This document shows positions 8,407 to 43,939 of a stretch of 51,812 bases of DNA, piece after piece. Origin of the DNA: Paludibacteraceae bacterium (lineage in GTDB: Bacteria > Bacteroidota > Bacteroidia > Bacteroidales > Paludibacteraceae). The notes under the pieces were generated by a model. The model made no database searches, was not told the origin of the DNA, and worked only from the letters and a program-made list of their open reading frames with translations. Each line of letters starts with the position of its first letter. Positions within the stretch are counted from its first letter, which is position 1. Both the position numbers and the translations under genes were made by a program. The stretch covers positions 1 to 51,812 of the forward strand of contig JAFYSB010000069.1 in NCBI GenBank assembly GCA_017546705.1, in the 5' to 3' direction.

Positions 8407-9549
8407 ATGAAAAAATATGCTTTATTCTTATTTGCTTTCTTGCCTATAATGCTTGTTGCGCAAGCGACTATGAAAGTATGGGCAAACGATACGGTTACCG
8501 AATTTGATACCCGCAACATTGATAGTATTACTTTTGTGGATCTGTATCCTGATCCTATTGTCGGTAGTTATGCCTACGGCGCTGATTGTTCATGGATTTC
8601 AGAGCAAGAAGCGGATGGAGTGCTCTTTTATGATACCTTAGGTCGTGCTACCGATGGCATGCGCGTAATGCGTGATGCAGGTATGAACTCAGTACGTCTG
8701 CGCGTATGGGTAAATCATACTACAGGCTGGTGCAACAAAGAGGATGTCATCATCAAAGCCAAACGAGCTGCTGCGCTCAAACTACGCGTGATGATAGATT
8801 TCCATTATTCCGACTTCTTTGCAGATCCTAGTCGCCAAAATATTCCTGTAGAGTGGGCAGATTACGACCTTGCACAGATGAAACAAGCCGTAGCTAACCA
8901 TACTACCGAAGTGCTCTCTGCACTCAAAGCAGAAGGAGTGACCCCAGAATGGATTCAGGTGGGCAACGAGACACGCAACGGTATGCTATGGCCTATGGGA
9001 CAGTTGTGGAATAACAATGGTGACCTGCCTAATGGTTGGAAAAATTATGCTGCGCTCACTACTGCGGGATACGATGCCTGCAAAGCAATCTTCCCAGAGG
9101 CCTTGGTAATCGTGCATATCGACAATGCCTATGAGAACAACAACTGGTTTTTCCGTAAACTGAAGCAAAATGGTGGTAAATTCGATATGATTGGCTTGAG
9201 CCACTATCCAATGATGAAGCAATGGTCGGGCAAGGATTGGGATGAGATGAACTCACTTGCTGCATCAAATATTAAATTGCTACACAATGAATTCAATTGC
9301 CCTATTATGATCGTGGAGATCGGTACACTGGCTTCCTCTGTAGCAACTGCGACACAAGTCATCGCTGACTTCCGCCAACGTGTTGATACATTGGATTATA
9401 TGAAAGGTATCTTTTATTGGGAGCCACAAGTCTATAATAATTGGCGCCCAAAAGAATATATCGAATTAGGGTGGGGTGCATACAATATGGGCGCTTTCAC
9501 CTCAAAGGGACAACCTAATGAAGCCCTCAAAACTCTCTGGAAAAGATAA
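8407..9549 (+). CDS. Arabinogalactan endo-beta-1,4-galactanase (GH53)
   Basis: A 380-residue secreted endo-enzyme that cleaves beta-1,4-galactan side chains of pectin. The signal peptide ends near VAQA. A short linker follows with the IDSITF motif that many Bacteroidota exported proteins carry. The GH53 TIM barrel starts at GADCSWISEQE (about residue 58) and includes SVRLRVWVN and VMIDFHYSDFFADP. The catalytic acid/base should be Glu188 in WIQVGNETRNG and the nucleophile Glu304 in MIVEIG. It has its own promoter 22 bp upstream and is followed closely by the GH2 gene. The family call rests on the whole barrel and both catalytic motifs. No C-terminal sorting tail is present. Confidence 0.95.
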   Translation: MKKYALFLFAFLPIMLVAQATMKVWANDTVTEFDTRNIDSITFVDLYPDPIVGSYAYGADCSWISEQEADGVLFYDTLGRATDGMRVMRDAGMNSVRLRVWVNHTTGWCNKEDVIIKAKRAAALKLRVMIDFHYSDFFADPSRQNIPVEWADYDLAQMKQAVANHTTEVLSALKAEGVTPEWIQVGNETRNGMLWPMGQLWNNNGDLPNGWKNYAALTTAGYDACKAIFPEALVIVHIDNAYENNNWFFRKLKQNGGKFDMIGLSHYPMMKQWSGKDWDEMNSLAASNIKLLHNEFNCPIMIVEIGTLASSVATATQVIADFRQRVDTLDYMKGIFYWEPQVYNNWRPKEYIELGWGAYNMGAFTSKGQPNEALKTLWKR

Positions 9550-9580
9550 TTCAAAATTCATAATTCAAAATTCATCATTC
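9548..9580. repeat. AATTCAAAATTCAT tandem repeat
   Basis: Two exact 14-bp copies (9548-9561 and 9562-9575) plus a partial copy start within the GH53 stop codon and run to the GH2 start. Related sequence occurs at 17311-17338 and 23561-23594. Confidence 0.8.
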
Positions 9581-9581
9581 A

Positions 9582-11990
9582 ATGACTATCCTGATTTTAG
9601 CAATCACTTCTCTGCTCACTTCGTGGCAATTTGCTAAAGAGCAAAATGACCACCAAATACCAGTAGCTGAGGATAAACATTGGCAAGAAGTCTCTGTTCC
9701 ACACGATTGGGCAATCTACGGACCATTCGACCGCGCTAACGACCTGCAGAACGTTACCGTTTGGCAAAATGGCGAGACCTTCCCATCTATCAAGACTGGC
9801 CGCACAGGTGGACTACCATACATGGGTAGCGCATGGTACAAAACCATTCTTCCCCTTCAGGGGGAGTTAGAGGGGGCTTATTTCCTCCTCTTCGATGGCG
9901 CTATGAGCGAAGCCGAAGTCTTTGTCAATGGACAGAAAGTGTGCTTCTGGCCATATGGCTACAATGCCTTCCATTGTGATATTACATCTGCTTTGAAAAC
10001 TGGCGAAAACGAAATTGCTGTTCGCCTCCAAAACCGCGAGCAGAGTAGCCGCTGGTATCCTGGTGCAGGACTCTTCCGCAATGTGCATTTCATTCATAAA
10101 CCCCATGTATATGTTCCTATTTGGGGCACACATATCACTACACCTTATGTGACCGAGGAATTGGCTGCTGTGAATATCAAAACACGTGTAGAGAATGCAC
10201 TCAACAAACATATTGAGTTGCGCACTTCGCTTATTCATAAAGCAACTGGAGAAGTGGTGGATTCGCTTGTTAGTCACTACGATGTAAAACACAACTTACC
10301 TCTTGAGCAAAACATCACCCTCCACAATCCTGCTCTCTGGTCGCCTGAGACGCCTAATTTATATATTGCACGCACAAGTGTATATGCAGACGGCGTATAC
10401 CAAGAAGAGGTAGAAACCACCTTTGGCGTGCGTAGCGTACAAATCGTACCGAATGTGGGTTTCCTACTCAATGGCAAAGTGCGTAAGATTCAAGGTGTTT
10501 GCTTACACCATGATCTTGGTCCTCTAGGCTCGGCAATTAACAAAGATGCACTACGCCGTCAGTTATTGATACTCAAGGAGATGGGATGCGATGCTATTCG
10601 TACTTCCCACAATATGCCTGCGCCCGAACAAATCGAACTTTGCGATGAAATCGGACTTATGGTGATGTGTGAACCATTCGATGAGTGGGATTGGGCAAAA
10701 TGTAAAAATGGTTATAGTCGTTTCTTCAACGAGTGGGCAGAACGCGATATGGTGAATATGCTACACCATTTCCGCAACAACCCAAGTATCATCATGTGGT
10801 CTATTGGCAACGAAGTACCTACGCAATGTGACCCACAGGGATATAAAACAGCAAAAATGTTGCAAGATATATGCGTTCGTGAGGATGGAACACGTCCATG
10901 TACGGCGGGTATGGATCAAGTGACATGCGTTTTGGAGAATGGTTTTGCTAGTGTACTGCAAATAGTTGGACTCAATTACCGTCCTCATCGCTATTTGGAA
11001 TCCTACCAACGTACACCTCAACACCTAATTCTTGGCTCGGAGACTGCCTCTACCGTTTCTTCTCGTGGTGTATATCTATTACCTGCATTGCCCGATGATA
11101 CCGATCATATCACTAATATGAATCATCCGGGTGGCAATAGCCAAACCAATCAATGCTCTAGTTATGACCTGCAATATTGCCCTTGGAGTAATCTTCCGGA
11201 TGATGATTTCCGAAATATGGATGACTATGCTTGGACGATTGGACAGTTCGTTTGGACAGGCTTTGACTATCTAGGTGAACCTTCTCCATGGGATACTGAT
11301 GCTTGGCCAAGTCACTCTTCCTACTTCGGTATCATTGACCTTGCAGGTATTCCTAAAGATCGCTACTACCTCTATCGCTCTATGTGGCGCAAGGATGTAC
11401 ATACCGTACATCTCCTTCCTCATTGGAATTGGAATACTGGTGACACCCTTCCAGTTATGGCATACACCGATGCCGCTGAAGGCGAACTCTTTGTCAATGG
11501 CAAGAGTATGGGTAAGGTACGCAAACTCACTCGCGAAGAGTCTGAAGCCGCTATTCAGGCAGGCGACCCATTGGGCTTGCAACGCCGCTATCGCCTCATC
11601 TGGGATAACATCCCATACGAGGCAGGTGAGATTAAGGTCGTTACGCCTGTAGGAGAGGCTATTCGCAAGACGGCAGGTGCACCACACCATATAGAGATGT
11701 ACGTGGAGGATATCCCCGCAACAGACAATAAACCTCTTCACTTCGTGCGTGTACGTGTCTGCGATGCGAATGGTAATCTCTGTCCACAAGCCAATCATCT
11801 CATCCGCTTTGCTACCAAAGGCGAGGGTACATTCCGCGCGGCTGCCAATGGCGATGCTGCTAATCTGGACCTCTTCCATATGCCTCAACACCATGCTTTT
11901 GCTGGCGAATTGACGGCTATCGTAGAAGGCAGTTGCACGCTGACCGCTACTGCAAAAGGACTTAAAAAAGCAATAATAACCATTCAATAA
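9582..11990 (+). CDS. Beta-galactosidase (GH2 family)
   Basis: An 802-residue exo-glycosidase expected to release galactose from galacto-oligosaccharides. The N-terminal jelly-roll has VPHDWAIYGPFDR and GSAWYKT, the immunoglobulin-like domain follows, and the catalytic barrel has RTSHNMPAPEQIELCDEIG. Glu411 in WSIGNEVPTQ is the predicted acid/base and Glu487 in LILGSETAS the predicted nucleophile. A C-terminal beta-domain follows. A short hydrophobic N-terminus (TILILAITSLLTS) suggests export, probably to the periplasm. Residues 90-99 (LPLQGELEGA) are encoded by a C-rich palindromic repeat that looks inserted in frame (see 9848-9880). Eleven bases separate it from galK. Confidence 0.93.
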   Translation: MTILILAITSLLTSWQFAKEQNDHQIPVAEDKHWQEVSVPHDWAIYGPFDRANDLQNVTVWQNGETFPSIKTGRTGGLPYMGSAWYKTILPLQGELEGAYFLLFDGAMSEAEVFVNGQKVCFWPYGYNAFHCDITSALKTGENEIAVRLQNREQSSRWYPGAGLFRNVHFIHKPHVYVPIWGTHITTPYVTEELAAVNIKTRVENALNKHIELRTSLIHKATGEVVDSLVSHYDVKHNLPLEQNITLHNPALWSPETPNLYIARTSVYADGVYQEEVETTFGVRSVQIVPNVGFLLNGKVRKIQGVCLHHDLGPLGSAINKDALRRQLLILKEMGCDAIRTSHNMPAPEQIELCDEIGLMVMCEPFDEWDWAKCKNGYSRFFNEWAERDMVNMLHHFRNNPSIIMWSIGNEVPTQCDPQGYKTAKMLQDICVREDGTRPCTAGMDQVTCVLENGFASVLQIVGLNYRPHRYLESYQRTPQHLILGSETASTVSSRGVYLLPALPDDTDHITNMNHPGGNSQTNQCSSYDLQYCPWSNLPDDDFRNMDDYAWTIGQFVWTGFDYLGEPSPWDTDAWPSHSSYFGIIDLAGIPKDRYYLYRSMWRKDVHTVHLLPHWNWNTGDTLPVMAYTDAAEGELFVNGKSMGKVRKLTREESEAAIQAGDPLGLQRRYRLIWDNIPYEAGEIKVVTPVGEAIRKTAGAPHHIEMYVEDIPATDNKPLHFVRVRVCDANGNLCPQANHLIRFATKGEGTFRAAANGDAANLDLFHMPQHHAFAGELTAIVEGSCTLTATAKGLKKAIITIQ
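9848..9880. repeat. C-rich palindromic repeat inside the GH2 gene
   Basis: The plus strand reads TTCCCCTTCAGGGGGAG followed by TTAGAGGGGGCTT. CCCC-TTCA-GGGG forms a hairpin. The element is in frame and encodes LPLQGELEGA between GSAWYKT and the conserved FLLFDGA strand. It resembles C-rich palindromes I associate with intergenic DNA in Bacteroidota, and relatives occur at 14238-14276 and 43002-43078. Confidence 0.7.
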
Positions 11991-13929: not shown

Positions 13930-13976
13930 CTAAACACTAAACAGTAGCCCGTATACGGGCGTCCCCTAAACACTAA
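13930..13976. repeat. GTTTAG-flanked palindrome, copy R1
   Basis: On the minus strand GTTTAGGGGACGC, then the perfect palindrome GCCCGTATACGGGC (13947-13960), then GCTACTGTTTAG. The element ends at the ABC-F gene: its outermost GTTAG supplies the TAG stop codon (13973-13975). Confidence 0.8.
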
Positions 13977-15746: not shown

Positions 15747-15783
15747 CTAAACTCTAAACAGTAGCAAAGCGTCCTCTAAACTA
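15747..15783. repeat. GTTTAG-flanked palindrome, copy R2
   Basis: Plus strand CTAAACTCTAAACAGTAGC, AAA, GCGTCCTCTAAAC. It fills the gap between the ABC-F start and the DUF4837 gene. Its outer edge reads TAG on the minus strand and is the DUF4837 stop codon (15781-15783). Confidence 0.8.
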
Positions 15784-19577: not shown

Positions 19578-20453
19578 ATGCTCCCTACCGTAGCACTCAT
19601 TTATGATTTCGACGGCACCCTTGCGCCTGGCAATATGCAGGAGTTCGGACTCTTGCAAGCTATTGGTTACACCAATCCTGCGGAATTCTGGAATCTCTGC
19701 GACCAGATCGCCAAGACCAATGATGCGGGTGGTATTGCGGTGGTGATGTATGCCATTCAGGCTGAGGCACAACGTGCAGGTATTCGCTGTACGCGAGATA
19801 TGTTGCGCGAGTTTGGCAAGACAGTACGTTTCTTTTCGGGTGTCACTGAGTGGTTTGATTATATCAATGCCTACGCAGCACAGATTGGTATCGAAGTCAA
19901 GCACTACGTCAATAGTTCGGGTGTCAAGGAGATGATCGAAGGCTGTGCTATTGCCCAGCAGTTCGAGCAAATCTATGCTTGTACCTACCTCTATGATAGC
20001 AATGGCGATGCTTGTTGGCCATCAGTTGTGGTGGATTATACCAAGAAAACGCAGTTCCTTTTTAAGATCAACAAGGGTATCCGCGAGGTCAGCGACCGTG
20101 TACGTATCAACGAGTTTGTGCCTTCCAATGAGCGCCCCGTGCCATTCGAACGAATGATTTATTTCGGTGATGGCGAGACGGATGTGCCATGCATGCGTAC
20201 AGTCAAGTCCAATGGCGGACATAGTTTTGCTGTCTATGGCAATGAGAAGAAGCGCGCCCTTGCTCAGCAATTGCTCTCCGAAGGTCGTGTCAATTTTGCT
20301 TGTGCAGCCGATTATACGGAAGATGGTCAGATGATGGAGATTGTCAAGCGTATCTTGGATAAGATCAAGGCTGACTACACCCTCTCGCAGCACGAAGCTG
20401 TCAACCGCGACACGCTCAATATGTACTCTGCTTTAGGCGATACGATGGACTAG
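19578..20453 (+). CDS. HAD-superfamily hydrolase
   Basis: A 291-residue cytoplasmic phosphatase-like protein. HAD motif I is YDFDGTLAPGN (about residues 7-17), with the nucleophile Asp and general-acid Asp spaced DxD. Motif IV is YFGDGETDVPCM. A cap region of helices lies between them. The substrate cannot be read from the sequence. ATG 19578 was chosen because motif I then falls at the usual distance from the N-terminus; an upstream in-frame start would translate the 9-bp repeat. Its 3' end overlaps the convergent folC gene by 38 bases. Confidence 0.88.
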   Translation: MLPTVALIYDFDGTLAPGNMQEFGLLQAIGYTNPAEFWNLCDQIAKTNDAGGIAVVMYAIQAEAQRAGIRCTRDMLREFGKTVRFFSGVTEWFDYINAYAAQIGIEVKHYVNSSGVKEMIEGCAIAQQFEQIYACTYLYDSNGDACWPSVVVDYTKKTQFLFKINKGIREVSDRVRINEFVPSNERPVPFERMIYFGDGETDVPCMRTVKSNGGHSFAVYGNEKKRALAQQLLSEGRVNFACAADYTEDGQMMEIVKRILDKIKADYTLSQHEAVNRDTLNMYSALGDTMD

Positions 20454-21753
20454 TGCACAGCGCTTCGCCCACAACGTAGTTGCTACCTCCGATGAAGATA
20501 ATGTCTTCCGATGTCGCTTGTTGTTTAGCTACTGCAATAGCATCGCAGACCGAATAAAAGCACATATTGTACTTGTGCATAGGGTGGAGTGCGTGCCATT
20601 TGGCTTGTAATTCAGCCGCAGGCAGTGCACGCGAGGTATTAGGTTGCGTGAAATAATACACAGCCTCTTCAGGTAAAAGGTTCAACACCACATCAATATC
20701 CTTATCCGATACCATACCAAAGACAATATGCAGTTTTCCGTTTTCACCTTTCAGTTTTCCGTTTTCCATTTTCAGTTGCTCCACCACATACCGAATACCA
20801 TGGGAGTTATGCCCCGTATCGCAAATCGTGAGGGGTGATTCGGATAGGATTTCCCATCTGCCACGTAAACCTGTTAAACTGCATACTTGAGCAAAGCCAG
20901 TGGCAATCGCTTCAGTGCTTATTTTAATATTACAATGGTTACGCAGCACTTGCAGAGCTACAAAAGCCGTTTGTTGGTTTTTCTCCTGATAGCAGCCTTG
21001 TAACTGACATATGGGTGCTTCTTTCAAGCGGCGACGGCGCATATAGCCGCATTGATCAGCAAACCATATTCGGCAATCAGTCGTTTCTAATCCATCACCT
21101 AATATATCGCACTCGTGTGCACGATTAAGAAATACTTGTTGCGTATCGGGGTGAGTTTCGCCTATCACACAGGGGATATGCGATTTGATGATACCCGCCT
21201 TCTCGTGGGCTATCTGCGTAAGGGTAGTACCTAGAAACTCAGTATGGTCAATGCCGATATTTGTGATCACAGAGAGTAGTGGAGTCAAGATATTGGTGCT
21301 ATCTAATCGTCCGCCTAATCCTACTTCAATAATGGCTATATCTACTTGCTGCTCAGCGAAATACCAGAATGCAAGGGCCATTGTTGTTTCGAAGAAAGAG
21401 GGTCGCAGCTCGTCCAAAAATGTACGATTGCTGGCTACCCAATCGACCACTGTCGATTGCCCAATCATCTGTCCGTTGATACGGATACGCTCGCGAAAAT
21501 CCACCAAGTGTGGAGAGGTGAAAAGTCCCACCTTGTATCCCGCTGCTTGTAGCGCAGCTGCTATGAGATGTGAGGTAGAACCTTTGCCATTGGTACCTGC
21601 GATATGCACAGAGCGCAATCGTTCGTGTGGATTGCTTAGATGTGCCATCAAGGCATAGGTGTTGTCCAATCCTGGTTTGTATGCCGATGCTCCGACCAAG
21701 TGAAATGCTGGTTGCGAAGCATAGAGATAGTCAATGGTCTGTTGGTAGGTCAT
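20416..21753 (-). CDS. folC: Bifunctional folylpolyglutamate synthase / dihydrofolate synthase
   Basis: A 445-residue Mur-ligase-like enzyme that adds glutamate to dihydropteroate and folates. The P-loop is HIAGTNGKGSTSHL (about residues 49-62), then FTSPHLVDFRERI, IIEVGLGGRLDSTN, TNIGIDHTEFLG, HEKAGIIK and ICDTGHNSHG. Residues about 327-341 (KMENGKLKGENGKLH) come from an in-frame 21-bp-period repeat between VVEQL and the conserved HIVFGMV strand. The start codon overlaps the upstream stop codon as ATGA, implying coupled translation. The 3' end overlaps the convergent HAD gene by 38 bases. Confidence 0.95.
   Translation of the reverse strand: MTYQQTIDYLYASQPAFHLVGASAYKPGLDNTYALMAHLSNPHERLRSVHIAGTNGKGSTSHLIAAALQAAGYKVGLFTSPHLVDFRERIRINGQMIGQSTVVDWVASNRTFLDELRPSFFETTMALAFWYFAEQQVDIAIIEVGLGGRLDSTNILTPLLSVITNIGIDHTEFLGTTLTQIAHEKAGIIKSHIPCVIGETHPDTQQVFLNRAHECDILGDGLETTDCRIWFADQCGYMRRRRLKEAPICQLQGCYQEKNQQTAFVALQVLRNHCNIKISTEAIATGFAQVCSLTGLRGRWEILSESPLTICDTGHNSHGIRYVVEQLKMENGKLKGENGKLHIVFGMVSDKDIDVVLNLLPEEAVYYFTQPNTSRALPAAELQAKWHALHPMHKYNMCFYSVCDAIAVAKQQATSEDIIFIGGSNYVVGEALCTSPSYRLKQSTY
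20731..20775. repeat. 21-bp-period CAGTTTTCCGTTTTC repeat inside folC
   Basis: The 15-base unit occurs exactly at 20731-20745 and 20752-20766, followed by a partial copy CATTTTCAG. The 21-base spacing keeps the reading frame and yields ENGKLKG then ENGKLH. The dnaE element at 29079-29107 shows the same spacing and related units. Confidence 0.85.
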
Positions 21754-22796
21754 AGGTTGTGTTTTTTGCGTTGTTTGCCTGCATGCCATAACTGAAAAGA
21801 GTTGAGCAGGTTTTGCCAAATGATGTATGCCGCCGGTCCGATGGATGCTAATGGCACGAGGTACATTTGAGCCATCCATACGCCTAAAGCAGTATTCTTC
21901 TGACCAAAAGCTTGCCCTGCAGTGATACGACTTTTCTCATTTAGTGTGTAGTGTATGGCTGCTGGATTGATGAGAATATCTTGATAGTCAGTACCATGAC
22001 TGCTGGCTGGAAAACTCCAGCCAATCCATCTTCCAAGTGCAAATTGGAATAGGCATGCTATTAGCGAACCACCACATAGAAACGCAATTGCCCATCCAGA
22101 ATAGTCCTGGGTAAGGAGCGTGTAAGTGATCTTAGCAATCAACACAATCAGCAGCACAATCCATAGGTAGAATGGCATGCTTGCCCAGATGGTTGTGATG
22201 GTAAATGGTCGCGTTTCTCCTTTGCGTCGATAATAACCTTCATAGCCTAATCGCAGTGCCCATGCAGCCAGGAATGGCCCCAATAGCATGGGACCTACTT
22301 TTCGCAGTATCAGCCACATGGCAGGAACAAACGCTATATCGGCCGATGGGTTGACAATAGGAAAGAAGGCAGGAACAATGATGGCTGTAGCGATATTACT
22401 CAGCAGACTGAAAGTGGTGAGATTTTGAATACTACCTCCCAGCTTGCCTGCAATGATAGGTGCTGCTGTGGCTGTAGGCATAATCACGCAGACCATCAAT
22501 CCTTGTGATATGATGGATACGTCAGTCGTTGAAAGTTGGGTATTGAACCTTGAAAAGAGCAACGTACAACCATAATAGACTACGGCAGTCAGCAGTAACT
22601 GCCCGCCCAATACCAACCAATGCCATGTGCGCAGACGCAAGTCCATGGGGTTGATCTTGCAGAATGTGAAGAATAGCATGAAGAATATCAGCGGGGGCAA
22701 GAGCCAATCCAAATGCCTAAACCAAGGATAGCCTATCGCACCAATAAGCATGGCGATGATAAGCGCATATCGATCAAGAAAAAGGCGTAATTTCAT
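21750..22796 (-). CDS. Bile acid:sodium symporter family (BASS) transporter
   Basis: A 348-residue inner-membrane protein with about nine to ten hydrophobic helices, similar to bacterial members of the BASS/arsenical-resistance-3 superfamily. Recognisable parts are LPPLIFFMLFFTFCKI near the N-terminus, VCVIMPTATAAPIIAGKLGGS (about 105-125), and SRITAGQAFGQKNTALGVWMA near the C-terminus, where the family has its crossover motif. The cargo is unknown; organic anions such as pantoate or keto acids are transported by relatives. It sits between an outer-membrane protein gene (5-base gap) and folC (4-base overlap). Confidence 0.8.
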   Translation of the reverse strand: MKLRLFLDRYALIIAMLIGAIGYPWFRHLDWLLPPLIFFMLFFTFCKINPMDLRLRTWHWLVLGGQLLLTAVVYYGCTLLFSRFNTQLSTTDVSIISQGLMVCVIMPTATAAPIIAGKLGGSIQNLTTFSLLSNIATAIIVPAFFPIVNPSADIAFVPAMWLILRKVGPMLLGPFLAAWALRLGYEGYYRRKGETRPFTITTIWASMPFYLWIVLLIVLIAKITYTLLTQDYSGWAIAFLCGGSLIACLFQFALGRWIGWSFPASSHGTDYQDILINPAAIHYTLNEKSRITAGQAFGQKNTALGVWMAQMYLVPLASIGPAAYIIWQNLLNSFQLWHAGKQRKKHNL

Positions 22797-22801
22797 AGGA
22801 A

Positions 22802-23560
22802 TTAGTTGAAGAATAGCGACAAACCGATAGAGAAGGTAAGCGGTCCGGATGGATGTTGAATCTTGCCTTGCTTTTGTGCTGCTTGTTCGATGAGGGTTGG
22901 CATCAAGTGTTGGGTGTAGGCAGCCTCTGCAAAGACTGCAAAATTATGGAAGATAAACCATTCCACACCTGCTGAGAAACGCAGGGTAGGTACGATATGG
23001 TCGATATTGGTCATCTCATAGGAGGTATTATCTTCCATCAGCGTCGCATTTTTAACCGTAGCGATTGACACACCAGGTTGCATGCTGATATAGAAGTCCC
23101 ATGGATGGAAATAAGGATTCTCGTAGAAAGCCTTGATATCTTTCACTAAGGGGAAGCGATAACCCACGCTCATACCCACTTCGTTATACCAGACCTCAGC
23201 ATTGCGGAAATTAGAACCTGCGAATTGCAAATCGAGGTCCTCGTAGGTGTTGCTATGGGTATCATAGGTAATATATACGAAAGTACCATAATTCTTATGG
23301 TGACGCCAACCCAGTCGCATGGCGGAATTAAAGGTAGCTCCTTCAATGCCATTTGGGGTAATGCCAACTCCCAATACAGTAGGCAAATCAAGTGCATCAA
23401 AGAAATCTCCGAAGGTGTACTTCTTTTTCGCTTCGCTCACCTTGTTGGCGGGCGCATTATCGGTTGCGTGTGGTTGGTCTGTGTCACTCACGTTGTTGTT
23501 TTGAGCAAAAAGTCCCATGCTCATTGCTGAGCACAGGACTAATGTAAGAATCTTGTTCAT
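22802..23560 (-). CDS. Outer-membrane beta-barrel protein, function unknown
   Basis: A 252-residue exported protein with signal peptide MNKILTLVLCSAMSMGLFAQ, a low-complexity Asn/Asp/Ala linker, and alternating hydrophobic beta-strands that end in a terminal aromatic segment, SIGLSLFFN. This suggests an outer-membrane barrel. No enzymatic motif is evident. ATG 23560 was chosen over the upstream in-frame ATG at 23581, which lies in an AATTCAAAATTCAT-type repeat. It is the second gene of the yidC operon. Confidence 0.75.
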   Translation of the reverse strand: MNKILTLVLCSAMSMGLFAQNNNVSDTDQPHATDNAPANKVSEAKKKYTFGDFFDALDLPTVLGVGITPNGIEGATFNSAMRLGWRHHKNYGTFVYITYDTHSNTYEDLDLQFAGSNFRNAEVWYNEVGMSVGYRFPLVKDIKAFYENPYFHPWDFYISMQPGVSIATVKNATLMEDNTSYEMTNIDHIVPTLRFSAGVEWFIFHNFAVFAEAAYTQHLMPTLIEQAAQKQGKIQHPSGPLTFSIGLSLFFN

Positions 23561-23594
23561 AATTCTTAATTCAAAATTCATAATTTAAAATTAT
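23561..23594. repeat. AATTCAAAATTCAT-family leader repeat
   Basis: AATTCTTAATTCAAAATTCA followed by TAATTTAAAATTA fills the gap between yidC and the next gene. It belongs to the family seen at 9548-9580 and 17311-17338. Confidence 0.7.
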
Positions 23595-25694: not shown

Positions 25695-28600
25695 CTAATT
25701 CACCTTGTATTGCAGTACCTCATCCGCTTGCAGTTCTTTCAACCAGTGAAAGAACGCTTGATTCATACGGATTGGGCTCGCATTGAATGTTATCACATTT
25801 TGTTTGATGGTGTCGAATATCTGTACATGCAACGGAGTTGTACCTGCATGTTGTTGGGTCATATCCGACAAACTATCAATCAAGTCTGGTTGTACATTCT
25901 CAATTGGTATTTGCAAGGTAACGCTTTGCAAATCCTTTTGCGCCTCTTGTATCAGTTGTACTTGTTGCAATGCAAACTCATACTCAGCTTCTTCTACAGG
26001 TTTGGGCTTAAACCACTTCATGTGTGCACCTCGTTGTTGCATCACGCCAGATAAATATACATATACATTGGGCTTGAGCAATGCAGCGAAACGTTGGTAA
26101 GTCTCGCCAAATGCGCTAAACTGATAGCTGCCAGTATAGTCCTCAATCGTATATTTACCCCATGGGTTACCCTTTTGCGACATACGGTCTTCTGCTGCCA
26201 CTATAATACCGCCCATATGCAATGGTTGTCCAGCACGTTTCTCAATCCACTGATTAGGAGTGAGTTTCTCTTTTTCTTCATCATCTTCTTCGCTATCGTT
26301 GTCTTGCGAGGTAGCGGCGTTGCGCGCAGTTGGTGAACTCCATGCATCGAACTGATTCATCTCTTCTGCTGTGATATTGCACATCTCGCGCACTTCAAAT
26401 TCCCATTCATCCAATGGGTGTGCCGATAGGAAAATGCCGATAAGGTCTTTTTCTTTGTTAAGTCGTTCGATGCTTGACCAACGAGGCACCACTGGCAGTT
26501 CTGGACGTTGCACCTCTACACCTAATCCTCCAAAACCATCAAACAACGTAATAGATTGCTCCTGTTTGTCTTGTTGATAACGGTTACCGTAGCGCATCAC
26601 TACTTCCAGCATATTTTCACCCTTGTTATTGGTATCAAATAGCTGCTCGCGATAGAACCCATCAAAGCAGTCAAAAGCACCAGCCAGTGCCAAACTCTCC
26701 ACCGTCTTGCGGTTGCATGATTGTAGATTAACACGTTCTAAGAAGTCGAACAAATCTTTATACTTACCATTCTTCTCACGTTCGTTGATAATCGCTTCTA
26801 CAGCACCTTCGCCAACGCCTTTCACGCCGCCCAAACCAAAACGCACATCACCTTTGCTATTGACGGTGAAGTTCATCTCCGACTCATTTACATCAGGTGC
26901 TAATACGCTAATTTTCATCGCCTTACACTCGTCCATGAACTTCGTCACATCTTTGATGTCATCTTTCGCCACAGTCAAGTTGGCTGCCATAAACTCGGCA
27001 GGGTAGTGAGCTTTGAGATAAGCGGTCTGGTATGCCACCCACGAGTAGCAAGCAGCGTGCGATTTGTTAAACGCGTACGATGCAAACTTCTCCCAGTCTG
27101 CCCAAATCTTCTCAAGCACTTTCTCATCGTGTCCGTTGCTCTTACCGCCATTGATGAACTTTGGTTTCAACTCTGCCAGCATTGCCATGATCTTCTTACC
27201 CATTGCCTTACGCAGCTGGTCGCTCTCGCCACGAGTGAAGTTGGCCAACAAACGAGATAGCAACATCACCTGCTCTTGATATACCGTTACACCATAGGTG
27301 TCCTTCAGGTATTTCTCCATCACAGGTATATCGTATGTCACAGGCTCTAGACCATGCTTACGACGGATAAACTGCGGAATATAATCCATTGGACCAGGGC
27401 GATAGAGGGCGTTCATAGCAATCAGGTCACCTATCACAGTAGGCTTCAGCTCCTTCATATACTTGCGCATACCTGCCGACTCAAACTGGAATACACCTAC
27501 TGTTCGTCCCTCTTGGAACAACTTGTATGTCTCCGCATCATCAATAGGAATGTGGTCAATATCAATGCTGATGCCATGTGCTTTGAAGATATTTTGCAAA
27601 CACTCCTTGATAATAGTCAGTGTTTTCAGTCCCAAGAAGTCCATCTTAATCAATCCCACACTTTCTACCACGTGGCCATCGTATTCCGTCACCAATACAC
27701 GCTTACCCGATTCGCGATCTTCCACTGTACTTAGCGGAGCAAACTTTGTCAAATCATCCGCACCAATAATCACACCGCAGGCGTGTACACCCACTTGACG
27801 AATCGTATCTTCCAATTGTGCTGCGTAGGTGAGCATATTGCGAATTTGTGGTTCATCACCATTCAGCAGCATGCGCAATTCATCCACATACTTGTAGCAG
27901 TTCTTAAGATTAACCTTAGGCGATTTGCCTTTCTCATCCTTGATGTTATCAGGGAAACTGCGATCTGGGATATAACTCTTAATTTCATTCACGCGAGGCA
28001 AAGGGATACGTTGAACACGTCCTACATCCGCAATGGCAGATTTGGTTGCCATCGTACCATAGGTGATGATATGTGCCACCTGTGTATGTCCATACTTATC
28101 GCTCACCCAATCCAACACTTTTCCACGACCAGCATCATCAAAGTCAGTATCAATATCGGGTAGGGAGATGCGGTCTGGGTTCAAGAAACGTTCAAACAGT
28201 AGGTCGTACTTCAGAGGGTCTAAGTCGGTGATTCTCAGGCAGTATGCTACTACCGATCCTGCGGCACTACCACGACCAGGACCTACACTCACACTCAACT
28301 CCTCACGTGCTGCACGGATAAAGTCCATCACAATCAAGAAGTAACCAGGGAAACCCATCGTCTTCATGATATGCAGTTCAAATTTAATACGCTCCTCTTG
28401 CTCCTCTGTCAGTGTTTCGCCATAACGCTCGTGAGCACCTTTGTATGCCAAGTGCGCCAAATAATCAGCTTCCAACTTGATGCGATATAGTTTGTCATAT
28501 CCACCAAGCTTCTTAATCTTCTCATTGGCTTGCTCCTCATTGAGCACCACATTGCCGTGCTCATCGCGTGTAAACTCCTCAAATAGGTCTTGCTCTGTGA

Positions 28601-29657
28601 ATTTATCGCGATAACTCTCTTCAGTGCCGAACTCTTCTGGAATAGGGAATTTTGGCATGATTGGTCCCGAGTCAATGTCGTATATCTCCACCTTATCCAC
28701 AATCTCTTGTGTATTCTCCAATGCTTCAGGGATATCGCTGAATATCTCTGCCATTTGTTCGGGTGATTTCAGCCACTCTTGCTTGGTGTAGTGCATGCGG
28801 TTCTCATCGTCAATAAAGTGGTTGGTGCTTACGCATACCAAATGGTCGTGTGCCTCTGCATGCTCTTCCTCCACAAAGTGTACATCGTTCGTGGCTATCA
28901 CCTTCACCCCATGTTTCTTTGCCAATTCCACCAATACGGGATTGACTTCGCGCTGTACTTGATATACGTGCTGGTCTGCTCCTGGCTTAGTGGTTTGATG
29001 GCGCTGAATCTCAATGTAATAGTCTTCGCCAAATAGGTTCTTGTACCACTCAATCGTTTCCTCTGCTGCTTGAAAAAAGTTTTCACTTTTAACATTTCCG
29101 TTTTCACCTCCCATAGCGGACATACCCTCCATAATCTTCTGTGGCAACTCACCACCCAAGCACGCTGAACAGCATATCAATCCTTCATGAAACTCTTCCA
29201 AGAGGTCGCGATCAATACGTGGACGACGATAGTAACTATCTTCCATAAAACTAGCACTCACAATCCTACACAGATTGCGATAACCTTGCATGTTTTTGGC
29301 TAGCAATATCAGGTGCCAACCACTTTGGTCCACGATATATGCTTTGCCTTCTGCATTCACAGCTTTCAAGTCTTTGTCGCGTTGCAAGCGACTACGACGT
29401 GCGCAGTAGGCTTCTACGCCTACAATCGGTATGAAAGGCACAAACTCGGTACCTTCTTCTTTCGCCTTCTCTTTGAGTTTTTTGTTAGTTTTTTTAGTGT
29501 AGTCAAGGAGTTCCTTGATGCCATACATGCATCCGTGGTCGGTCAATGCGATAGCGGGCATACCCATCTTAATGGCTTTATCCACCAAATCGGGTACTTT
29601 GCTCATGCCGTCGAGCACAGAGTAATGTGAGTGTACGTGTAAGTGAGTAAATTTCAT
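25695..29657 (-). CDS. dnaE: DNA polymerase III subunit alpha
   Basis: A 1320-residue replicative polymerase. The N-terminal PHP domain has [13 protein letters not shown] and [10 protein letters not shown]. The catalytic palm has [10 protein letters not shown] (aspartates near 501 and 503) and a later Asp in [55 protein letters not shown] and the tandem helix-hairpin-helix and OB-fold C-terminus complete the family layout. Residues about 183-195 ([12 protein letters not shown]) are encoded by a 21-bp-period repeat and appear inserted between QKIMEG and the conserved [17 protein letters not shown]. It follows the subtilisin-like gene by six bases and seems cotranscribed with it. Confidence 0.96.
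   Translation of the reverse strand: [1320 protein letters not shown]
29079..29107. repeat. 21-bp-period GTTTTCAC repeat inside dnaE
   Basis: GTTTTCAC occurs at 29079-29086 and 29100-29107, spaced exactly 21 bases. CCGTTTTCAC is shared with the folC element. Read in frame as [10 protein letters not shown]. Confidence 0.8.
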
Positions 29658-38324: not shown

Positions 38325-38474
38325 AACAAAAATACGGCACTTTGTGCCTACTGTTTAGGGTTTAAAGGCAAGGAGCACAATTAGCTGTTTCTAATAATTT
38401 TGAGTAATTTTTTATAATAAATTCTAATTTTGGGAGAGAAATAATCAACTGCAATTGTAGGAGAGAAAGCATCT
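38325..38474 (+). promoter_or_regulatory. Repeat-bearing leader, copy A
   Basis: This part of the 333-base gap 38142-38474 starts with AACAAAAATACGGCAC, TTT, GTGCCTA. It then has a CTACTGTTTAG arm and ends near the start codon with AACTGCAATTGTAGGAGAGA. The hairpin GGCAC-GTGCC lies 139 bases before the ATG. Copy B (39280-39431) has the same two ends at nearly the same distance. Confidence 0.6.
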
Positions 38475-43001: not shown

Positions 43002-43078
43002 AAGCCTACCCCCAACCCCTCCCTATAGGGAAGGGAGTTGCGTAGGACTAAAAAAAAGTCCTTCCCTTTAGGGGTGAA
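43002..43078. repeat. C-rich palindromic repeat cluster
   Basis: AAGCCTACCCCCAACCCC, TCCCTATAGGGAAGGG, then AGGACT-AAAAAAA-AGTCCT, then CCCTTTAGGGG. It starts at the ligase stop codon, and its first part matches the element inside the ABC-F gene. A separate hairpin GAATGTCC-GGACATTC lies at 43095-43115 and may terminate transcription. Confidence 0.8.
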
Positions 43079-43150: not shown

Positions 43151-43882
43151 ATGAATTTGTGTATTGATCAAGGAAATTCGAGGACGAAGGTGGCGCTGTT
43201 TAAGGACGGCGTGATCGTGAAGAACCTGCTATACCGCTCGTTTACGAGCGTGGATGTGGAGCGGTTGTTCTCGTTGTATCCGATTACGCAGAGCATCGTG
43301 TCGTCGGTGGCGAACATGGAGCCTGCTGTGATCAATGCGCTCAATCGATTGTCGAAGAAGTTCGTGCTGTTTGACCACTTGACACCATTGCCCATCAAGA
43401 ACTGCTATCAGACGCCAGAGACGCTGGGACACGATCGCATAGCAGCTGCCGTAGGGGCGGCACATTTGTGCCCTGGGCAGAACCTGCTGATAGTAGATGC
43501 TGGTTCGGCTGTGACCTATGACTTTGTGTCGGCTGAGCAAGGGTATTTGGGTGGTAATATCGCCCCGGGTATCAAGATGCGCTTGACGGCATTGAACCAG
43601 ATGACCAAGCGCTTGCCCAAAGTAGAGGTAGAGCCCGATGCGTTGACGCCCCTGTTTGGAAAGAACACCAAAGAGGCCATGGCAGCAGGTGTGGTGCGTG
43701 GGCTGGTGTTTGAGGTGAAAGGATATATGCGCCAATTGAAGGAGCAGAAGATAGCGTTTAAGACCTATGTGACGGGTGGCCATGCACCTTATATATTAAA
43801 CGCGATGAAGCAGAAAGAGGTGGTGGGCGAACCGCACTTGGTGTTGATAGGGCTGAATAGGATTCTTGAGTTTAGTGTTTAG
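43151..43882 (+). CDS. coaX: Type III pantothenate kinase
   Basis: A 243-residue cytoplasmic kinase of the ASKHA fold that phosphorylates pantothenate, the first step of coenzyme A synthesis. Phosphate-1 motif CIDQGNSRTKVALF is at residues 4-17. The central motif is ETLGHDRIAAAVGA (about 89-102), followed by LLIVDAGSAVTYDFV and GGNIAPGIKMRLTALNQMTKRLP. The C-terminus has YVTGGHAPYI. Length is typical. It begins the conserved cluster that continues with a porin, a TPR protein and LptC. The TAG stop codon lies inside a GTTTAG repeat (43877-43882). Confidence 0.95.
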   Translation: MNLCIDQGNSRTKVALFKDGVIVKNLLYRSFTSVDVERLFSLYPITQSIVSSVANMEPAVINALNRLSKKFVLFDHLTPLPIKNCYQTPETLGHDRIAAAVGAAHLCPGQNLLIVDAGSAVTYDFVSAEQGYLGGNIAPGIKMRLTALNQMTKRLPKVEVEPDALTPLFGKNTKEAMAAGVVRGLVFEVKGYMRQLKEQKIAFKTYVTGGHAPYILNAMKQKEVVGEPHLVLIGLNRILEFSV

Positions 43883-43926
43883 TGGACGCTATGCTACTGT
43901 TTAGAGTTGAAAGTTGAAAGTTTAAA
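43871..43926. repeat. GTTTAG-flanked palindrome, copy R4, with GTTGAAA tandem repeat
   Basis: AGTTTAGTGTTTAGTGGACGC, TAT, GCTACTGTTTAG matches copies R1 and R2. Its GTTTAG supplies the coaX stop. Three 7-bp units GTTGAAA, GTTGAAA and GTTTAAA follow (43906-43926). Confidence 0.8.
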
Positions 43927-43939
43927 GTAAGAGAATATA

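Follow-up and report, generated by a model that had tools for sequence, protein, structure and literature searches.

What places repetitive DNA inside the coding sequence of a replicative polymerase and of a folate enzyme? The question is raised by a 51,812-nucleotide contig (JAFYSB010000069.1, hereafter the window) of a Paludibacteraceae bacterium (GCA_017546705.1), a single contig out of 82 in a 2.1-Mb genome labelled G000. Two genes on its minus strand carry short tandem repeats in frame, namely dnaE for the DNA polymerase III alpha subunit (25695..29657; NF004226, 1200.7 bits, above cutoff; structural homologue 2hpi) and the open reading frame (ORF) of a bifunctional FolC (20416..21879; TIGR01499, 365.1 bits, above cutoff; FolC homologues in PDB). 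The folC start is probably near 21753, because the alignment of relatives begins at about residue 43 of the ORF. We conclude that both stretches are probably in-gene survivors of array copying, derived from a dispersed heptamer array with the unit GAAAACN and its variants.

Heptamer arrays in folC and dnaE

The sequence CAGTTTTCCGTTTTC recurs at 20731 and 20752 in folC and GTTTTCAC at 29079 and 29100 in dnaE; both contain the common core CCGTTTTCAC, and the encoded peptides are KMENGKLKGENGKL in FolC and an ENGNVKSEN-type stretch in DnaE, all as given in the initial annotation. The 21-base period proposed there is real as a spacing, but the unit itself is 7 bp. Tandem Repeats Finder reported periods of 7, 14, and 21 for the folC array (20731..20777, minus strand; 6.7 units of the types CTGAAAA/TGGAAAA/CGGAAAA/GTGAAAA), and a period of 7 dominates at related loci; therefore, 21 bp represents three heptamers. 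The folC 15-mer repeated at 21 bp was the sole exact 15-mer repeat in the window at all distances of 15–60 bp. Exact 8-mer repeats averaged 2.6 per distance over this range, with 15 at 21 bp (nine from the folC array, one from the dnaE pair) and likewise 15 at 48 bp.

The dnaE stretch (29079..29107, minus strand) reads GAAAACG GAAATGT TAAAAGT GAAAAC. It is a degenerate array, recognisable from its register and context and not from the 8-mer, with a register match at 29080-29105 containing 2 mismatches. The four-unit pattern GAAAANN with up to 3 mismatches, which was selected after folC had been inspected, matched only folC (five overlapping matches) and dnaE (one match) in the window, where 0.01 are expected from shuffles. 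The dnaE array is supported by this register pattern, its presence in a sister genome, and the finding of other arrays in the same loop.

Absence of the repeat-coded residues from homologues

Both sites were compared in 30 FolC and 30 DnaE sequences (all FolC and all DnaE but one belong to the genus of the window, as do the 36 relatives G001-G036). Both are variable-length loops, that of DnaE lying within the PHP-domain match (Pfam PHP, 5-220), and the residues ENGK and ENGNVKSEN were present only in the window's own proteins. The closest DnaE relatives of the window are metagenome-assembled genomes of Paludibacteraceae or Bacteroidales. The sister genome G061 (DnaE 94.5% identical) has both arrays in a drifted state (KTENGKRETENGKL and GGENGNINSEN; its folC array is locus L150), and other sequences occupy both loops in G062, G063, G014, and G025. 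In FolC from 20 other Bacteroidales families, the loop was shorter and the residues were absent in 20 of 20 cases; DnaE from the two other families examined lacked 15 residues at the loop, the Thermus DnaE structure 2hpi has a 15-residue gap at the array site, and the FolC structures in PDB are without the loop sequence. The occurrence of the same residues in distant Bacteroidales, named in the initial annotation as the mark of ancestral protein sequence, was therefore not found: they were missing in 29 other FolC and 29 other DnaE proteins, nearly all of the same genus, as well as in these remote homologues, and only the sister genome has them. For both genes, the proposal of in-frame, repeat-derived loops absent from orthologues was borne out, and relatives with and without the arrays were both found.

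Outside the arrays, folC and dnaE are under purifying selection, as follows from nonsynonymous (dN) and synonymous (dS) divergence between G000 and G061 (FolC dN 0.104, dS 0.984; DnaE dN 0.030, dS 1.323). Within the arrays, dN was higher than outside, reaching 0.187 versus 0.104 in FolC (14 codons) and 0.138 versus 0.030 in DnaE (13 codons).

It is very improbable that these residues represent ordinary loop drift or ancestral sequence in which the repetition is accidental. Loop length does differ from relative to relative at both sites, and in dnaE the 8-mer pair by itself is near chance. The folC array, however, is highly significant, and the sequences of relatives already contradict drift for this gene; moreover, the residues are absent from relatives and other families, and in-frame arrays occur in many other genes.

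Abundance of period-7 arrays in the lineage

The frequency of such arrays was estimated in 80 dnaE loci (733.6 kb), which were picked by DnaE similarity and not for repeats, and which we term a lineage rather than a genus. They contained 68 runs at lag 7 versus none in one block-shuffled copy, and 4, 16, 5, and 14 runs at lags 6, 8, 9, and 11, respectively; lags 8 and 16 were also elevated. Arrays of at least 24 bp numbered 91 (12.4 per 100 kb), represented 58 consensus units, and were present in 44 of the 80 loci. Stretches of the own genome yielded 35 such arrays in 290.8 kb (12.0 per 100 kb). By comparison, one array of this length, a T-rich run, was found in 326.6 kb of 20 other families (0.3 per 100 kb), and none in 200 kb of another genus of Paludibacteraceae. 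The phenomenon is not exclusive to the lineage, since clear arrays were present in two other families (G142 and G046), examined because a pattern had matched there.

The search of relatives for the repeat within and between genes, suggested along with the initial annotation, revealed heptamer arrays in both settings. The own-genome stretches and the window together contained 38 arrays, of which 6 were within an ORF of at least 150 amino acids; the degenerate dnaE array and the window array at 23556, visible at lag 14 or with a looser setting, are left out of this count. Among 119 arrays of 58 regions, 60 were in ORFs, 22 at an ORF edge, and 37 between ORFs, in a sample that was chosen by pattern matches and is hence biased and in which some ORFs may be shadows.

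Recurrence at the same protein loops

An array of at least 23 bp was found in the aligned part of 19 of the 76 distinct FolC proteins. In the numbering of the window protein, eight of the 21 arrays were at residues 311-325, three at 368-384, two at 402-406, seven at 429-440, and one at 79-89, so that 20 of 21 fell at four loops and comprised many different units; some arrays in this count are orthologous (L111/L115/L116; L010/L150), and it leaves out identical FolC proteins and arrays outside the aligned part. At FolC residues 313-325, octamer arrays of GGGATTAC were present in frame in L103 and L111, where others have heptamers. The DnaE loop is likewise occupied by different units: the arrays at residues 175-194 consist of GGGTTAC/GGGTGAG in L083, GGCTACA/GGCGACA in L107, the GGCGAAA/GGCTAAG type in L084, and GGCTATC-like units in L075, and GAAAACN units occur in this loop in L040/L070.

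Other conserved enzymes have arrays at places where structural homologues are shorter. In RsmH, the array adds 21 residues (query 63-83, located where 1wg8 passes from chain residue 43 to 44), and in RibD, query residues 186-224 correspond to 11 residues in 2hxv, giving 28 extra. Alignment with PDB proteins showed gaps at the arrays of PheT, at one array of RecN, and at one array of WecB (18 residues). In stretches of the own genome, four proteins with internal arrays correspond to IorA, Tex, DUF2851, and an NrnA-like DHH protein; all four are supported by Pfam domains, with IorA and NrnA scoring under the NCBIfam cutoffs. The NrnA-like protein has a 12-residue gap in 4py9 at its array. The third in-gene GAAAACN array of G000 is in a glycosyltransferase gene, on the opposite strand, and encodes FPFSVFAFPFS (L001 1501-1533; G000:C17:17710-17742), while G014 has a GGATATC array in this loop (L266). 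Since the net change between G000 and G025 is only +1 codon, the glycosyltransferase array looks like a replacement; the expression used for this comparison matched 4 of 14 loci, one of them G000. In L164 (G072:C1), a single 852-residue ORF harbours six in-frame array stretches that belong to several types of heptamer.

Length changes and reading frame

Array-free relatives with both flanks aligned were available for 32 of 46 coding arrays, and the net length change was a multiple of three in 31 of these 32, a regularity partly forced by the requirement for an open ORF. For the other arrays, an array-free relative was found in 20 of 42 cases, and the change was divisible by three in 12 of 20. 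This comparison covered arrays more than 140 bp from either end of a locus and counted orthologous arrays separately. Among FolC arrays, the clean cases (L129, L074, L038, and L111) show 12-15 bp replaced by 33-39 bp, with a net gain of 21 or 24 bp; for L129 versus L139, the gain was 21 bp at 92.5% flank identity, and L074 and L038 likewise gained 21 bp. Closely related genomes may also have different arrays at one site. A heptamer array in folC of L109 corresponds to the octamer array GGGATTAC in L103, with equal length and 93.2% identical flanks, and an intergenic GTAATTG array in L123 corresponds to a GATTTAG-like sequence in L140, with a 7-bp difference and 94.6% identical flanks.

The initial annotation suggested a repeat family shaped to be translatable, and this idea was not supported. 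The sense strand was open in 47 of 52 arrays located in ORFs, which is partly so by construction, and the units of 11 of 22 intergenic arrays were closed by stops on both strands. Filtering rather than design is indicated, because there are many heptamer units and half of the intergenic arrays are closed on both strands. The 21-bp period was also considered as a general signature of coding or stop avoidance and rejected, since, among arrays of at least 40 bp, identity at lag 21 was greater than at lag 7 in 6 of the 21 that are coding and 4 of the 15 that are intergenic (arrays in ORFs below 200 amino acids or over the edge of an ORF were left out, and each array was counted once).

Seeds and sharing of units

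The arrays could have grown in situ, with a chance pair of heptamers in a gene expanding through polymerase slippage and the gain of three units at once being tolerated. Net changes of +21 bp are frequent in FolC, an array directly upstream of an ATG shows a length difference of exactly 7 bp between L136 and L138 (95.8% identical flanks), and the arrays of L123 and L140 are 7 bp apart, though their units differ too. The idea that 7 bp corresponds to the polymerase contact and so favours slippage is cited in PMC4692102 and PMC4679880. We nevertheless consider such growth rather unlikely, because single-unit steps would break the frame in essential genes, no seeds were observed, and the choice of unit is in part typical of each genome. 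At array-free sites, the array's own unit was the better match in only 13 of 26 cases (8.19 versus 7.60 of 14 for other units; P = 0.19), the sample having been reduced from 51 events to 35 by dropping units already seen and to 26 by dropping sites shorter than 20 bp.

Sharing of units speaks in the same direction. Within the own genome, 20.5% of array pairs on different contigs agreed within 1 mismatch versus 4.2% of pairs across genomes and about 5% with shuffled units, an approximately fivefold excess that weighs against growth from local seeds. One unit type may also be present at many places of one genome: three units of GGCKACN, the type present in the DnaE loop of G072, matched this genome 27 times (with partial overlaps) and none of 14 other genomes. 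In G071, three units of GGTKASN had 37 matches, mostly GGTTAC, like its DnaE loop. When three exact GAAAACN units with the C fixed were required, 3 of 119 genomes from the order matched, G000 itself not being among them, a result that says little. Unit types thus partly follow the genome.

Array copying as the probable origin

We infer a copying process and a purifying filter from several observations: the arrays lie in frame within genes, relatives lack them, they recur at the same loops, their units are shared in the own and the tested genomes, and seeds are not found. Arrays would be copied to new places while DNA is replicated or repaired, and template switching or ectopic gene conversion via short homology is the most likely route. 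A copy would overwrite a short stretch of the target and add a few units, and later slippage could alter the unit number in 7-bp steps. Within genes, a copy would be kept if it altered the net length by a multiple of three, brought no in-frame stop, and lay in a loop tolerant of length change. A stronger version, less likely than not, is that an active process of the lineage copies arrays over short targets and repeatedly rewrites the loops of housekeeping proteins, amounting to a natural, frame-filtered diversification of loops.

Several points weigh against array copying. The dnaE copy is degenerate. The open frame and the divisibility by three have the partly forced character mentioned above, and uncollapsed orthologous arrays enter the same comparison. 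The closest array-free pairs are separate genomes with about 92-95% flank identity, no copying event having been observed; the related genomes are metagenome-assembled, and the distance between G000 and G061 is large (dS about 1.0 and 1.3). Not all unit patterns are confined to single genomes: GGTKASN, as GGTTAGA/GGTGAGA, also had 37 matches each in G063 and G072, and three units of GAAAANN matched 13 of 15 genomes, with the highest counts in G065 and G063. Within single loci of about 9 kb from other genomes 12% of array pairs agreed within 1 mismatch versus 8.9% between genomes, a weak difference. The second array of RecN has no gap in the PDB alignment, and the second array of WecB is in a gap of only 2 residues; these two and the glycosyltransferase array of G000 are read as replacements and could be drift. 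In all four genomes tested, shared 9-mers are more numerous among array flanks than among random places (89 versus 44, 227 versus 116, 67 versus 31, and 527 versus 48), which could hint at the ends of an element.

The latter finding, together with the dispersal of arrays, the partly genome-specific unit types, and the replacement of loops, would suit a dedicated mobile element or enzyme, resembling Rickettsia palindromic elements or a templating reverse transcriptase, that inserts the arrays. The hairpin elements that adjoin GTTTAG heptamers in these genomes would also be in line with it. Yet the shared flank words were array-like in G063 and G072 and derived from the hairpin element in G000; those of G071 were neither, each being found at 3 arrays. 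None of five arrays folded clearly better than shuffled sequence, and the units are very diverse (58 among 91 arrays). Such a dedicated inserter is accordingly regarded as improbable.

Other repeats in the window and related genomes

Apart from the arrays in folC and dnaE, the window contains a heptamer array AATTCAA/AATTCAT between ORFs (9546..9582), a period-7/14 array TTCATAA/TTCAAAA at an ORF boundary (23556..23592), and a heptamer array AGTTGAA/AGTTTAA between ORFs (43899..43929), which adjoins a GTTTAGTG hairpin element. The hairpin element has the structure TTTAGNGRAC-stem-loop-stem-TACTGTTTAG and is joined to GTTTAGN heptamers; it is dispersed, and its stem varies yet stays self-complementary. 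Copies in the window are located at 13937-13970 and 15754-15780 on the minus strand and 43878-43904 on the plus strand, with a variant near 38349 (plus strand), and G000 has 39 copies. The element had 120 matches in 8 of 10 genomes versus one for the reversed control. Base pairing extends down to a small loop in 59 of the 64 distinct cores when G-U pairs are allowed, a rule that is lenient for the shortest cores, and the 34 cores of 13 nucleotides formed 162 of 170 pairs versus a mean of 80 with their 3' halves swapped.

A palindromic repeat, CTCCCTNNAGGGRAGGG, is present in 10 copies in G036 and 6 copies in G000 (43019-43035 in the window). It occurs in frame in the DnaE loop of L062 (G036:C17:24043-24059) and L142 (G171:C176:10640-10656), where the peptides are AYPHPLPEGKGV and AYPKPLPEGKGV. 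The bin G029 may be a mixed genome, since it has two dnaE and two folC genes of different kinds (L018 and L050).

Comparison with known repeat systems

Dispersed heptameric repeats are known, with the units GGGAATC in Xanthomonas and GGGGA(C/T)T in Nostoc; according to PMC4692102, 11% and 7% of them are intragenic in two xanthomonads, and the intragenic share in Nostoc is larger, with 68% intergenic. Like these, the arrays described here consist of a 7-bp tandem unit with variants and are dispersed in many copies, mostly between genes, on both strands. The unit is species-specific and the array length varies among related species in that system (PMC4692102); here, the specificity of the unit is strong for GGCKACN and the own genome and weak within single loci, and GAAAANN and GGTKASN occur in several genomes. 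Unlike the Xanthomonas and Nostoc repeats, this lineage has many different units and in-frame arrays in the loops of conserved enzymes, and, with regard to G-quadruplex formation, the GAAAACN unit of dnaE and folC contains no run of three G. Heptamer repeats of TAACTGA are described in PMC4679880 for Beggiatoaceae, cyanobacteria, and some Bacteroidetes, Paludibacter propionicigenes having two sets; within ORFs, they are mainly located at protein ends or in hypothetical proteins. Both systems share mostly intergenic heptamer arrays, some of which are in ORFs in a stop-free orientation, whereas that system, as presented there (PMC4679880), has one unit and ours has many, GAAAACN and others but not TAACTGA, in conserved-enzyme loops. 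PARCELs are likewise protein-coding repeat DNA that spreads within genomes; according to PMC2996958, they differ in encoding a 25-residue palindromic amphipathic motif in ORFs without assigned functions and are not 7-bp arrays in enzyme loops. A literature search by title and abstract, with subscription papers outside its range, turned up no paper describing heptamer arrays in frame, either in this family or in the loops of conserved enzymes.

Rickettsia palindromic elements are palindromic and about 100-150 bp long. The parallel with them drawn in the initial annotation applies to the outcome, in-frame insertion into protein-coding genes, and fails for the anatomy, as the arrays have no hairpin. 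They are short and tandem, the five arrays mentioned above fold not clearly better than shuffled sequence, and no element sequence is conserved at all sites. The example in PMC5656822 spans about 107 bp. A closer parallel than the heptamer arrays is CTCCCTNNAGGGRAGGG in the DnaE loop.

Implications

In-frame heptamer arrays are present in FolC, DnaE, RsmH, RibD, PheT, and other proteins, and in the cases tested their units match other arrays of the same genome. Repeat-coded loops of this kind can mislead both annotation and phylogeny. Since relatives are available both with arrays and without them, the mechanism can be tested. If the arrays are indeed copied, repeat DNA would be a steady source of new protein loops. 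Parts of housekeeping enzymes in this gut Bacteroidales lineage appear to be written by repeat DNA.
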